Virus record (IMG/VR): IMGVR_UViG_3300021134_000001
Coordinates: 1-64,000 of that record
DNA: 64,000 nucleotides
Source of the DNA: a virus
Reading direction: 5' to 3' (one strand)
Shown: piece by piece, positions 12,842 to 32,509 of the stretch
Layout: every line of letters begins with the position of its first letter
Position numbering within the stretch: the stretch's first letter is position 1
Notes under the pieces: model-generated
What the model saw: the letters and a program-made list of their open reading frames with translations, nothing else
The model's database searches: none
What the model was told of the DNA's origin: nothing
Position numbers and translations under genes: made by a program

Positions 12842-13319
12842 CATATTCTATCTTGACGCGGATCCTGTAAAGGCCGCAGAAATGCACTGTGATAAACATG
12901 TGTGTAAGATGATCATCGAAACGGCTCAAATGATGAGCTCGGTCCAAGCTCGTTATGGACTCGAAAATCCTCCATACAAACCAACGCATCAAAAGCATCC
13001 ATCAACGCTGTGGTCAGGCGATAACACGCTTCACTATGCATGGCTAAGAGCATTAGGATTGAGCTTATGCCGTGAGTATACGAAGCGCTATAATAAAACC
13101 CATAAGACTGAAGCGATTATTAAAGATTTATGGTCAGCGCCGCTTGGCATGCCTACAGGAGAGTGGAGCAATCCACCTCAATGTATGCCTGACGAGTGTA
13201 AGATGGATGACACCATCGATGCTTATCGTAAGTATTATGTTATTGCTAAAGCGAAGTTTGCCAAATGGGCACACGCAACTAAGGCACCGCAATGGTGGCC
13301 TAAGCTACAAACAATGTAA
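12837..13319 (+). CDS. conserved phage protein with CDKHVCKM motif, probable ATT start
   Basis: About 160 aa. The core (IFYLDADPVKAAEMHCDKHV, KMIIETAQMMSS, KHPSTLWSG) belongs to a family widespread in phages but of unknown function; conserved Cys and His suggest metal binding or catalysis. No ATG or GTG fits the family N-terminus. AAGGAG (12825-12830) lies 6 bases before ATT at 12837, so a rare ATT start is likely; ATG 12810 is an alternative. Its stop is in stem I of hammerhead HH8, just before RNA polymerase. Confidence 0.65.
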   Translation: MNIFYLDADPVKAAEMHCDKHVCKMIIETAQMMSSVQARYGLENPPYKPTHQKHPSTLWSGDNTLHYAWLRALGLSLCREYTKRYNKTHKTEAIIKDLWSAPLGMPTGEWSNPPQCMPDECKMDDTIDAYRKYYVIAKAKFAKWAHATKAPQWWPKLQTM

Positions 13320-13362
13320 CTGATGAGTCCTAATGGACGAAACGCCGTGAGGCGTCTTACAT
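13314..13362 (+). ncRNA. hammerhead ribozyme HH8 (type I)
   Basis: Stem I ATGTAA/TTACAT, CTGATGA, stem II GTCC-TAAT-GGAC, GAAA, stem III CGCC-GTGA-GGCG (a GNRA loop), TC. Predicted cleavage after C13356, leaving about 24 bases with AAAGGAGG before the RNA polymerase ATG. The upstream stop is within stem I. Confidence 0.95.
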
Positions 13363-22665: not shown

Positions 22666-23859
22666 ATGACACGTATTGCGCATATTCTGGGACGTGGTAT
22701 TGAGGGCTGTGGAGTAACCATGGCTGCGGTACAACTCCAACGCGGAGCTGGCGGTACTATCTACGCTGAAATGACAAAGAAGTGGCCACGCGGTAAAGGC
22801 ATCTTGTTTGATCGAGTAGAATTTAAAAGTAAAGATTCGTGGTATCAAATCGCTAACGAAATCAACGCAGATTACGATTTAGTGGTGTTTCACTCGGTGC
22901 CTGCTACTTCAATGGATGATGAGACAACCTCAGCATTCTTGAGAATGGTTAAAGAGATTACAGTGCGTAAGGCGCTTATCAATCACGACCATAAAATGGC
23001 ATCAATTACACGTAATGCGAATCTAAAAGAAATCTGTGAGAATGTAGATATTCTTACAACCCACTCTTTAGAAAACGACTTTTGTCGATGGTTAGTAAAG
23101 AACGAAGTTACGACTCCAGTCACTAAGATGGAATTAGGCTTTGACTATGCCACGCATCGCGCTAAGTATTGGGTGCCAATCGAAAAGCAGGATAGTCGAG
23201 TATGGCGCTGGATTGGCCGTGCAGCCGGTTGGAAAAATCCTAAACTAGCGATTGACTTCCATCAGCATGCTTTGATGGACAGTGGATTTATTACCATCTT
23301 AGAAGGTCTTGAGGCCTCTATTGGTTACAAGGACCTCCTATACACTGACGTGGATGACCCATCTACGCGTCGTATAGTATCCAACTACTTCCGTCAAGAG
23401 AAGGAGTATGGTGAGTCTGGTAAGCATGTCCATGGCACTGAAGTAGAGCATGTTGGCGCATATTTATTACCACCCTTCGTAAATGAAGAGGCTATGTATC
23501 GTTTAGGCAAATCTGCCTTTGGATCGAATCTCTATAATTTACCTGCTAAATATCATTGTAATAATATTGAATATTGCCACGCTGAAGTTATCGCTTCTGG
23601 TTGCGTGCCTATTTTCCACAAAGATTTACTTGACTCACTTATCCATAAAGGACGTGGCGATCCAGTAAGCAAATGTGTAAACACTGGCACCATCGGTCTC
23701 GATTATGGAAGCAGTTTCGCCGAAGTTCACGATAAGATGGTTTTCTTACGAGATAATCCAACTGCGCGCGATGAATGGCGTGAAATGGCTTATGCATTCT
23801 GGAAAGAGCATAACGATTTAGCAGTAGTAGCAGAATCAACTATCAATCAATTAAAATAA
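22666..23859 (+). CDS. agt: DNA alpha-glucosyltransferase (T4 AGT-like)
   Basis: 397 aa, against about 400 for T4 AGT, which transfers glucose from UDP-glucose to 5-hydroxymethylcytosine in DNA. Matches to T4 AGT as I remember it run along the whole length: GRGIEGCGVT (residues 9-18), HSVPATS (76-82), NHDHK with the catalytic-type His-Asp-His (107-109), RWIGRAAGWK (181-190), DFH then ILEGLEAS, GKSAFGSNLYNLPAKY, and the nucleotide-sugar part IEYCHAEVIASGCVPIF. AAGGAA upstream. With dCMP hydroxymethylase at 147-815 it predicts glucosylated hmC DNA. Extent of glucosylation cannot be read from sequence. Confidence 0.92.
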   Translation: MTRIAHILGRGIEGCGVTMAAVQLQRGAGGTIYAEMTKKWPRGKGILFDRVEFKSKDSWYQIANEINADYDLVVFHSVPATSMDDETTSAFLRMVKEITVRKALINHDHKMASITRNANLKEICENVDILTTHSLENDFCRWLVKNEVTTPVTKMELGFDYATHRAKYWVPIEKQDSRVWRWIGRAAGWKNPKLAIDFHQHALMDSGFITILEGLEASIGYKDLLYTDVDDPSTRRIVSNYFRQEKEYGESGKHVHGTEVEHVGAYLLPPFVNEEAMYRLGKSAFGSNLYNLPAKYHCNNIEYCHAEVIASGCVPIFHKDLLDSLIHKGRGDPVSKCVNTGTIGLDYGSSFAEVHDKMVFLRDNPTARDEWREMAYAFWKEHNDLAVVAESTINQLK

Positions 23860-30223: not shown

Positions 30224-30319
30224 ATGCTATGGCTAGCATTAGCGTTAATTGTAGCGGCATTTGCTGCGATGAAATACACCAACATATTAGATAGATGGAA
30301 GAATAGACATGGTAAATAA
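30224..30319 (+). CDS. 31-aa membrane peptide
   Basis: ATAGGAGA upstream. One hydrophobic helix (LWLALALIVAAFAA) and a basic end. It overlaps rubrerythrin by 11 bases. Function unknown. Confidence 0.45.
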   Translation: MLWLALALIVAAFAAMKYTNILDRWKNRHGK

Positions 30320-30761
30320 GACTCTTGAGAATTTAGAGAGTGCCTTAGCTGGAGAATCCATGGCGCATATTAAATATCGCTATTTTGCCAAGCTAGCGAG
30401 AGCTGAAGGTTTTGAAGAAGTAGCAAAACATTTTGAGCATACAGCTGATCAAGAAATCTTACATGCTTGGGGCCATTTAGAATTATTGGTAGGCAAACCA
30501 TCAACTCAACGTTGTTTAGAGATGGCCATCGAAGGTGAGACGTATGAGTTTACTGAAATGTATCCTAAGTTTGAGACTCAAGCACGTTTAGATGGACATA
30601 GTCACTGGCTTGAAGAAATTCAAGGTCAGATTGGCGAGTCTAAGGAGCATGCTGAGCAGTTCCAAGCGATTCTAAAGAAAGCTGAGAAGCGATTCAATGC
30701 TCTTAAGAAAGTTGAAGAGCGTCACGCTAATGCCTATAAACAAGTAATGGAGAAACTATAA
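30309..30761 (+). CDS. rubrerythrin (di-iron part)
   Basis: 150 aa. Ferritin-like four-helix bundle with ligands such as Glu16 (AGESMAH), Glu49-x-x-His52 (ADQEILH), and later Glu/His residues ([21 protein letters not shown]). Rubrerythrins reduce H2O2 with electrons from rubredoxin. The usual C-terminal rubredoxin domain is absent; it is a separate gene directly downstream (TAATGG). Together they would form a peroxide-reducing pair. Confidence 0.9.
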
Positions 30762-30892
30762 TGGAATATCAAGAGATGCAACAGTGCATTGTCTGTGGGT
30801 ATCTGATTAAAGATGAAGAGTTTAAAACTCTGCCCGACGACTTTGAGTGCCCTGACTGCGGCGTAGGTAAAGATGAATTCGAATTAGTTTAA
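30761..30892 (+). CDS. rubredoxin
   Basis: 43 aa with both knuckles: CIVCGYLI at the start and [12 protein letters not shown] at the end, four Cys for one Fe. About 10 aa shorter than usual rubredoxins. Start overlaps the rubrerythrin stop. It should feed electrons to rubrerythrin and could also serve the desaturase. Confidence 0.88.
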
Positions 30893-30903
30893 AGGAGTAG
30901 TGT

Positions 30904-31080
30904 ATGAATATCATTGTTGAACGTTTAATGAATCAAGGATTCGAAAGACAAGAAGCTATAAAGGAATTAAAGGTCCAGCGTAATATGGCAAAACGAGATA
31001 TCATACCGATCGAAGAGTGTCTAATGGATATGGGTTGTCCTCCAACTGAAGACTTCTATTACGCATTTAAAGAAGATTAA
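30904..31080 (+). CDS. small hypothetical protein
   Basis: 58 aa, AAAGGAGT upstream. Helical (LMNQGFERQEAIKELKVQRN), acidic end. Last gene before the RNA region. Function unknown. Confidence 0.55.
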   Translation: MNIIVERLMNQGFERQEAIKELKVQRNMAKRDIIPIEECLMDMGCPPTEDFYYAFKED

Positions 31081-31087
31081 TTATTAG

Positions 31088-31680
31088 TAGGTCCATTGGG
31101 AGGCATTCAATGGAGGCAACCATAGGCAGACCCACCGTGAGGTGTTGAGATACTTCGTAATAGAAAAGGCTCATCGCCAAGCCGGAAATATTGTAATGCC
31201 TACTGATAATCGTCTTGGACACGCAGACGTTAAAGTGAAGTGCAAGTAAGTGGAATGCTTACTGGTCAAAGAAGGAACCAGGTCCTATCGCGACGAGAGT
31301 ATTCCTGAGAACGCTGAGCAACGATAATGCTCCAAGGTCACTGGCTATATGCGTTGGAAGCGAAATAGTAGATACCAGTTACATGTACCAGTAGAAGTCT
31401 GGGTTGCCCTCTTGTAGGGTTGACGATGAGCTAATGACTCGTCTGAAAGATTGACGTTCGCATGTAACAAAGAAATCCATATGGCGTTAGGTTGATCTCT
31501 AACATTGTTTGGTACTGCTGCTCGAGGTTGTCGAGTAGGCAATGGCTGAAGCCTTTAGGACTGGGGATTCTCGGTTGAAGAAGCCAACTAACATACGCCA
31601 CTTAATACATATATGCGGAGTCCGTTCTAGACCACCTTCCGCGGGTCAGTGTAAGGTTCGAAACTTACATGTGTATAATT
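31088..31680 (+). ncRNA. large structured noncoding RNA (candidate GOLLD/ROOL class)
   Basis: About 590 bases without a credible gene, densely packed with hairpins: CCATTG/CAATGG (31092-31113), CACC-GTGA-GGTG (about 31132-31144), CTGGT/ACCAG (from 31262), CCCT-cttgt-AGGG, GATGAG/CTCGTC, GTTAG/CTAAC, CTCGA-GGTTG-TCGAG and GGCT-GAA-GCC. It lies next to a tRNA in a phage genome, as the giant GOLLD and ROOL RNAs often do. Size is near ROOL. Class assignment rests on size, setting and structure density only. Confidence 0.55.
31605..31676 (+). ncRNA. tRNA-like element
   Basis: 72 bases. Acceptor-like ATACATA pairs with TGTGTAT (one G-T), and GTAAG-GTTCGAAA-CTTAC resembles a T-arm but with an 8-base loop. 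The middle forms one hairpin, GCGGA/TCCGC, instead of D and anticodon arms. Not a canonical tRNA; it may be the 3' domain of the structured RNA. Confidence 0.45.
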
Positions 31681-31687
31681 ATAATGG

Positions 31688-31715
31688 TCGCCCACCACCA
31701 CAAACAAAAGGTGGG
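31688..31715 (+). terminator. strong 7-bp hairpin
   Basis: GCCCACC pairs with GGTGGGC over an A-rich loop. No long T-run follows. It may close the structured RNA or act as a processing site. Confidence 0.5.
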
Positions 31716-31935
31716 CACTAATGAATACGCGTAAAGACACATCAACCCAATCTATCTATGGGAAATTATCCTAGCCAACTTCCACCTCACTTATACGAGG
31801 CATCGATCAGCTGATTACTTATCGAATAAAGGCTACCGCTAGGAGAAGCGATGCAATCGGCTCGAAAGAGTAACCTTAAACGTTCACGACCATACGCTCT
31901 TAAACGTATACGATAGAGTATTCATTAGTAACTAT
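31716..31935 (+). other. noncoding stretch before tRNA-Trp
   Basis: No gene is visible. It contains short self-complementary bits (CGATCAGCTGATTAC, CTATCTATGGG, AAACGT pairs) and is likely part of the RNA precursor. Confidence 0.35.
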
Positions 31936-32010
31936 TTCTCGATAGTGTTAACGGTAGCACGTCTGTCTCCAAAACAGAAGGTTGCGGTTCGAATCCGTAT
32001 CGGGATGCCA
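31936..32010 (+). tRNA. tRNA-Trp (CCA)
   Basis: 75 bases. Acceptor TTCTCGA/TCGGGAT (six pairs, T-T at position 1:72), D-arm GTGT-TAACGGTA-GCAC, anticodon stem TCTGT/ACAGA with loop CTCCAAA (anticodon CCA), T-arm TGCGG-TTCGAAT-CCGTA, discriminator G and an encoded CCA. The G73 discriminator is typical of tRNA-Trp. The 1:72 mismatch is unusual. Confidence 0.88.
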
Positions 32011-32011
32011 A

Positions 32012-32077
32012 GTACTGTCAGTACGGTGGGACGTGCAGGTCGACAAGACACGGACATGGTTCGAATCCTAACAGTAC
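32012..32077 (+). ncRNA. degenerate tRNA-like element
   Basis: Starts 2 bases after tRNA-Trp. Acceptor GTACTGT/ACAGTAC pairs perfectly, the D-arm GTAC-GGTGGGAC-GTGC is good, and a GGTTCGAATCC T-loop is present, but the T-stem pairs only two bases. The anticodon arm is about 5 bases too short. Probably a decayed tRNA or a structural mimic. Confidence 0.45.
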
Positions 32078-32210
32078 ACACGCCACGTAGATACTACACT
32101 CAGAAAACTGCTAAGCCAGATACAGGCGATTTGCCAAGTCGACTAACCATGACCCTGCTGAGGAAGAGTTAGGGTATCCAAGGATTCAAGCGCCATACGT
32201 GGCTCCTAAC
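32078..32210 (+). other. hairpin-closed noncoding segment
   Basis: GCCACGTA (about 32082-32089) pairs with TACGTGGC (about 32196-32203), closing roughly 110 bases that include ACCCT/AGGGT. No gene is visible. It may be another folded RNA of the same precursor. Confidence 0.4.
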
Positions 32211-32263
32211 ATTGTAAACTTTTCCACAAACATTGTAAACTTATGAGAGAAGGATTGTAAACT
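32211..32263 (+). repeat. three phased ATTGTAAACT repeats
   Basis: ATTGTAAACT at 32211-32220, 32232-32241 and 32254-32263, spaced 21 and 22 bp, two helical turns. The last touches the ATG of the next gene. The phasing suggests a protein bound on one DNA face, or repeated RNA sites overlapping translation start. Confidence 0.6.
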
Positions 32264-32509
32264 ATGCCTATAGATTTAGACGATAAGGCTACGGCCGCAG
32301 AGCAACTGCAAAAGGTATTGGAAGATAATCTCTTCTTAAAGAATCTGTTTATGAAATATAAAGGAGTTGAGAATCCTTTTATTTGTGGTGGAAGTAAAGA
32401 GCAAGGCGAAGATGGATTGCCTGAATATATTATGGTCTGTCCAGCTCTAGGAGCGGATGGTTATGCTGTCTATAAAAAGTACAAAGACTACGACGCACCG
32501 AGTTATTAA
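32264..32509 (+). CDS. hypothetical protein
   Basis: 81 aa directly after the phased repeats; GAGAAGGA lies upstream. Two-part: helical start (DKATAAEQLQKVLEDNLFL), then beta (LPEYIMVCPALGADGYAVY). Function unknown. Confidence 0.6.
   Translation: MPIDLDDKATAAEQLQKVLEDNLFLKNLFMKYKGVENPFICGGSKEQGEDGLPEYIMVCPALGADGYAVYKKYKDYDAPSY

Follow-up and report, generated by a model that had tools for sequence, protein, structure and literature searches.

To our knowledge, the large RNAs that phages carry beside tRNA genes are mainly GOLLD and ROOL, whose function is not known. GOLLD (RF02032) is a large, structured RNA of phages and prophages that lies near tRNAs, assembles into a 14-mer cage and rises in expression at lysis. 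ROOL (RF03087), about 600 nt in length, likewise occurs in phages and prophages near tRNA islands. The linker of GOLLD can contain tRNAs, and GOLLD/ROOL-like RNAs have the size, phage location and tRNA neighbour of the locus described here (PMC12286853). Whereas GOLLD has one long conserved architecture, the present region contains small exchangeable modules.

The locus belongs to a 66.8-kb virus record in IMG/VR, of which the first 64,000 nucleotides form the window. Replication genes, an N4-like RNA polymerase and a DNA polymerase among them, make up a block that runs rightward, and the structural genes make up a leftward one. From the letters of the window alone, about 600 gene-free bases (31088-31715) beside tRNA-Trp had been proposed as a large structured RNA fitting GOLLD or ROOL. 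The tRNA-Trp was recovered by ARAGORN (Table 1), and its start at 31936 in a virus record gives a setting of the GOLLD type. The absence of genes held up, but the right end did not. Between the flanking CDSs (30904-31080 and 32264-32509), the + strand has no ORF of at least 60 aa except a GTG frame over the tRNA, so that the block is about 1.2 kb rather than 628 bases and continues to 32263. The sole ORF of at least 60 aa within 31088-31715 runs on the - strand, a TTG frame of 65 aa. The sense strand of the block was assigned from the tRNA and the adjoining genes. Compared with its closest relative, L043, the window differs in this region by whole blocks, and the lengths of the indels between the two do not come in multiples of three. 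A scan of the locus for promoters and terminators gave none above chance.

Table 1. Features of the gene-free block; positions are those of the window.
Feature	Positions	Strand	Basis or detail
Gene-free block with RNA modules and tRNA-Trp	31081-32263	+	ORF list, tRNA scan
5' domain (tentative)	31086-31204	+	Closing helix AGUAGG (31086-31091) / CCUACU (31199-31204); two sequences
M1	31208-31265	+	R1, 72.6 bits (window in training set); blastn E 2e-4 to Pseudomonas phages; covariation
M1 stem 1	31211-31214/31226-31229	+	11-nt loop UUGGACACGCA
M1 linker between stems		+	UUAAAGUGAAGUG
M1 stem 2	31246-31250/31258-31262	+	7-nt loop UGGAAUG
M2	31260-31305	+	GGUCAAAG..GGAACCAGGUCC..GCGAC hairpin; also in D3-like phages and contig L174
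L043-conserved block directly 3' of M2	31306-31377	+	Part of 94% identical block
Block mostly unrelated in L043	31378-31605	+	Comparison of window and L043
tRNA-like element (tentative)	31606-31677	+	Fold
3' domain up to tRNA-Trp	31680-31935	+	98% identical in L043
7-bp hairpin GCCCACC/GGUGGGC	31690-31716	+	Fold; conserved in L043
tRNA-Trp (CCA)	31936-32010	+	ARAGORN; Rfam tRNA 53.4 bits
Degenerate tRNA-like remnant	32012-32077	+	Acceptor-like GUACUGU/ACAGUAC; sequence, fold; not called by ARAGORN

Although setting and size fit GOLLD and ROOL, neither covariance model matches. A covariance-model search with Rfam 15 over 30900-32400 at E <= 10 returned only the tRNA and one chance match, with no GOLLD, ROOL or tmRNA. 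The whole record was also searched with both models and gave no match; this is a weak negative for GOLLD, for which five control genomes matched weakly and none over the cut-off, and for ROOL, for which the control genomes gave no positive at all. Known ribozyme models in Rfam did not match within 31081-32263. Among open-licence papers, we found none describing this RNA or the M1 motif. Structured phage RNAs beside tRNAs are a known kind; what appears to be new is this family, with its modular design and its association with boundaries.

The many short perfect hairpins on which the sequence-only reading was based proved a weak reason, because neither folding energy nor hairpin count beats shuffled sequence. 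Against 20 shuffles per strand the minimum free energy was unremarkable (z of -0.8 for the + and -1.2 for the - strand). Perfect hairpins with a stem of at least 6 and a loop of 3-12 numbered 4 against a shuffle mean of 1.4, a marginal enrichment not clearly above chance, as 22 of 300 shuffles reached 4. That the predicted RNA structure is real is supported by comparative evidence rather than by hairpins seen by eye.

This evidence is strongest for M1. The M1 motif family is defined by two hairpins, with the loops UUGGACACGCA and UGGAANN, and a linker NNAAAGUGANGUG. The window fits this definition; its R1 score is not independent, since the training set of R1 includes the window, and blastn gave separate support. 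The M1 alignment holds 22 distinct sequences in 58 gapless columns, of which 30 are invariant, nearly all in the loops or linker. In the two helices (4 + 5 pairs), 99.5% of cells are paired, as compared with 29-43% when the helices are slid by 1-3 columns. Both sides are altered in compensation in 6 of the 9 pairs, and the covariation score was reached by none of 500 shuffles. L043 and the window themselves differ in stem 2 by a compensating change of an A-U to a G-C pair. The covariation analysis in related phages that had been suggested as a check came out in favour of M1. Taken together, the alignment shows M1 as a conserved, predicted two-hairpin RNA structure, very probably a real RNA family outside Rfam.

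When the block was compared with phage records by blastn, we obtained tRNA matches and a 47-base match (31209-31255) in 42 Pseudomonas phage records. A pattern scan of IMG/VR for M1 gave 73 stretches. The majority were near-identical to the Pseudomonas phages, L043 and L028 were divergent, and further scans added more divergent members. Overall, M1 is present in about 50 records of Pseudomonas phages, in many prophages and in a diverse set of metagenomic phage contigs. Model R1 independently matches Shigella phage DS8 (35.6 bits) and Escherichia phage EC1-UPM (24 bits), and the DS8 form of M1 found 103 phage records by blastn. N4, 9NA and SopranoGao carry the DS8-type M1 with loop 1 altered and stems complementary (SopranoGao was read by eye). 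In the enterobacterial variant, the nucleotides of loop 1 and linker are both replaced and the helices persist. A pseudoknot between loop 1 and linker (AUCUG/CAGAU in DS8) was considered and dropped, as one pair is broken in phage 9NA. Among about 900 bacterial genomes, in sets that held no positive control, R1 at E <= 0.001 gave no convincing M1; the sole match (L173, 27 bits) has neither conserved loop and was judged chance. An exact-pattern scan of GTDB genomes gave 13 matches, all of which lack hairpin 2 and were for that reason put down to chance. Since M1 was not found in bacterial chromosomes, we do not regard it as part of bacterial tmRNAs. A separate recurring sequence, TCTCATTATGAGAAAGTGAAGTGA...GAGCCGTGGAA, which R1 does not match, precedes large tRNA arrays in several phage contigs (L080, L081, L084, L088, L092, L122, L123). 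The AAAGTGAAGTG...GTGGAA contigs (L080, L081 and relatives) represent a different sequence family beside tRNA arrays and were set aside.

M2 (GGUCAAAGNNGGNNCCNGGNCCUANC in the window) follows M1 in the window and L043. D3-like phages either have it about 50 or 150 bases ahead of M1 or lack it, and in L174, a 137-kb phage contig, it is located in an intergenic region. Model R2 scored M2 at 58.3 bits with the window in its training set, so the similarity was tested by direct alignment. The window M2 scored 46 against L174, where the maximum in 300 shuffles was 38, and 32 against D3, where the shuffle maximum was 30. The structure of M2 is less well supported than that of M1 because only two pairs covary among only nine sequences. 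These alignments show M2 as a conserved, predicted hairpin. Unrelated phages also have M1 and M2 as modelled here, with the order and the surroundings of the modules varying between them. No Rfam 15 family matches M1 or M2 at any locus tested. The proposals of a large structured RNA next to a tRNA, and of a new class should neither GOLLD nor ROOL match, stand in that two conserved modules, M1 with strong covariation, are unknown to Rfam; what is conserved, however, is a group of small, independently moving modules and not a single long architecture.

The long RNA form of the window is represented by two sequences, the window and L043, in which RNA blocks are kept at 94-98% identity and whole blocks are swapped. 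M1-M2 and the following bases are 94% identical, the tRNA-Trp 96% and the flanking CDS 81%, and 31378-31680 is largely unrelated. The high block identity may be the result of recent recombination instead of constraint. A search for further relatives through the adjoining 58-aa protein returned only L043 again. At the place of the helix closing the 5' domain, L043 has a different yet complementary helix, CUAGCA/UGCUAG. The tentative tRNA-like element consists of an 8-bp acceptor-like helix (AUACAUAU/AUGUGUAU) stacked on a T-arm-like hairpin, GUAAG-GUUCGAAA-CUUAC. Such an element arises in 5 of 500 shuffles, and the same test did not find it in L043. L043 has an extra tRNA-Thr and is without the degenerate remnant and most of 32012-32210.

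M1 is located at boundaries. It adjoins tRNAs, follows a tmRNA gene directly, or fills the space from a stop codon to the next ribosome site. M1 lies directly 5' of tRNA-Leu in L087 and of tRNA-Gly in L145, after the tRNA genes in N4, and immediately behind a permuted tmRNA in L146 and L147 (Rfam alpha_tmRNA, 94-97 bits). It lies between a stop codon and an SD-ATG in L028, L111, L114, L136, L140 and L144, and a few bases past a TATAAATA-like box in L137, L142 and L143. In the three Pseudomonas phages examined first, M1 falls in the gene-poor stretch that follows the NinG/Q genes, and in two of these a tRNA comes shortly downstream; the loci of D3 and Marin resemble them. In the Q/NinG-late gene region of D3-like Pseudomonas phages M1 is likewise found beside tRNAs, with M2 in D3 and others. 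The modules are unannotated there and have another order, whereas in the window, which comes from a phage with a gene for an N4-like RNA polymerase, they lie where the rightward gene block ends. About 110 bases downstream of M1 are conserved in L137, L142 and L143 (AAGGAGAACGCACC...TTAAGGGTGATGCCT...GCGGTGGCCAACGGTTAGCCACC), another candidate structured RNA. A third shared module occurs in L175, L177, L199 and the Pseudomonas loci, with an acceptor-like helix, a hairpin of the GCGC-AGGCUGAU-GCGC type and a T-arm-like hairpin GCCGG..CCGGC, the parts surrounding a variable insert. Its order varies; it comes after M1 in DS8 and D3 and before M1 in SopranoGao.

What, then, might such a module do at these boundaries? 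Hairpin 2 of M1 has 5 bp, an invariant G-C closing pair and a 7-nt loop with a near-invariant UGGAA (U first, A fifth) and two free positions. Set against the general features of tRNA, hairpin 2 appears to have T-arm geometry and, with hairpin 1, may mimic the tRNA elbow. This geometry, together with the boundary positions, suggests a tRNA-elbow-like processing or docking module. The explanation we prefer, with a probability of about 0.4, is that the region would be the modular non-coding part of a tRNA-bearing phage transcript, assembled from autonomous exchangeable modules (M1, M2 and probably the tRNA-like element), with M1 as a tRNA-elbow-like boundary module. M1 might be read by the tRNA-processing machinery through RNase P-like recognition, or might bind a tRNA elbow, and would thereby help to cut or protect the junctions of the transcript; a stable RNA of about 700-850 nt upstream of tRNA-Trp might be left over. 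We hold this specific role in boundary processing to be doubtful. RNase P normally needs an acceptor helix or CCA end, and M1 is without either; against T-loop mimicry, the M1 positions corresponding to 55-56 are GG, not UC. It seems rather unlikely that M1 and M2 belong to a large and so far unrecognised superfamily of modular tmRNA/tRNA-related phage RNAs (Pseudomonas, enterobacterial DS8/N4-like and marine), whose exchangeable tRNA-elbow modules would take over the machinery handling tRNA and tmRNA in infection, or else that M1 is a new self-cleaving ribozyme. The analysis adds an Rfam-absent family that is carried by the common laboratory phage D3 and, in divergent form, by N4 and DS8. Small modules can be tested singly, and the function of RNAs in phage tRNA islands would thus become experimentally approachable.

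The tRNA likeness of M1 also raises a different reading, in which the RNA would mimic tmRNA or tRNA and compete with or replace the host molecules at the ribosome or its factors; we regard this as unlikely. Permuted tmRNAs (RF04321, RF01849, RF01850) share tRNA-like elements with the locus, and it is such a gene that M1 abuts in L146 and L147. A presumed similarity between hairpin 2 of M1 and a stretch of E. coli tmRNA was not used as evidence. The distant, divergent M1 of the enterobacterial phages DS8 and EC1-UPM lies in RNAs that also carry a tmRNA-type 10-codon tag frame (ANDDVVLMAA), and a tmRNA form of phage DS6A that lacks the coding part is mentioned as having inhibited the cell's own tmRNA upon expression in E. 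coli (PMC11915505). However, the tag frame is absent from some M1-bearing phages, and the window has no tmRNA-family match at E <= 10. Its one tag frame, at 31430 (ANDSSERLTFACNKEIHMALG, ANDSSERL...), has no counterpart in L043, which leaves it unsupported.

The short length of M1 (about 55 nt), its near-invariant loops and its intercistronic positions would also suit a small self-cleaving ribozyme whose cleavage would separate cistrons and tRNAs, and the same phage has a hammerhead in an equivalent place (13314-13362). This is improbable, as the enterobacterial variant swaps loop-1 and linker bases and keeps the helices, the opposite of what a conserved catalytic core would show; we also recognised no conserved cleavage site in M1, and the ribozyme models do not match. 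To the same degree improbable is that M1 acts in the leader of late or tRNA operon transcripts, for example as an antiterminator or a 5' stabiliser. In L137 and L143 M1 follows the late-promoter-like box TATAAATA within a few bases, and in PAJU2 it is preceded by the antitermination gene Q and followed by a terminator-like hairpin, but in L087 and L133 M1 comes immediately behind a stop codon within an operon and not at a transcript start. Assembly into homo-oligomeric cages, as by GOLLD or ROOL, would agree in size, phage location and tRNA neighbour with PMC12286853; given that neither model matches and that the modules are found singly, at about 60 nt, in several phages, we consider it very unlikely.

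Several further features were observed. Apparently unannotated 10-codon tag frames of the tmRNA type occur in gene-free sequence, often near tRNAs, of enterobacterial and Vibrio phages (L175:1151, L187:1145 in phage P1, L179, L181, L183-L186, L188-L194), which include P1, Felix O1-like, Kuttervirus and N4-like (Gamaleyavirus) phages. Their tag peptides are ANDDVVLMAA, ANDDLMMVAA, ANDSEVLMAA, ANEEMYLAVA, ANDNVFLAVA, ANDAQFLAVA, ANDNAFLMAA, ANDNAFRVAA and ANDSEMRVAA. DNA similar to the tag-frame region is present in 780 phage records, with sub-threshold tmRNA model matches, and parts of the longer DS8 RNA were found in 889 phage records and in 1207 of 5426 E. coli genomes. The hammerhead at 13314-13362 is a Type I ribozyme (36.1 bits, above the Rfam cut-off), flanked directly by the gene of a DNA-binding protein on one side and, on the other, by the ribosome site of the gene for the phage RNA polymerase. 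At 32211-32263 there are three exact copies of ATTGTAAACT, directly upstream of the CDS at 32264; the window has 18 near-copies against 7.2 expected, and L043 has two such copies. The copies could serve as sites for binding or as promoters of the minus strand. Rubrerythrin and rubredoxin-like genes (30309-30889), an unusual phage cargo, lie a short way upstream of the RNA, and an alpha-glucosyltransferase-like gene (phrog_2888) at 22666-23856 possibly serves DNA modification.
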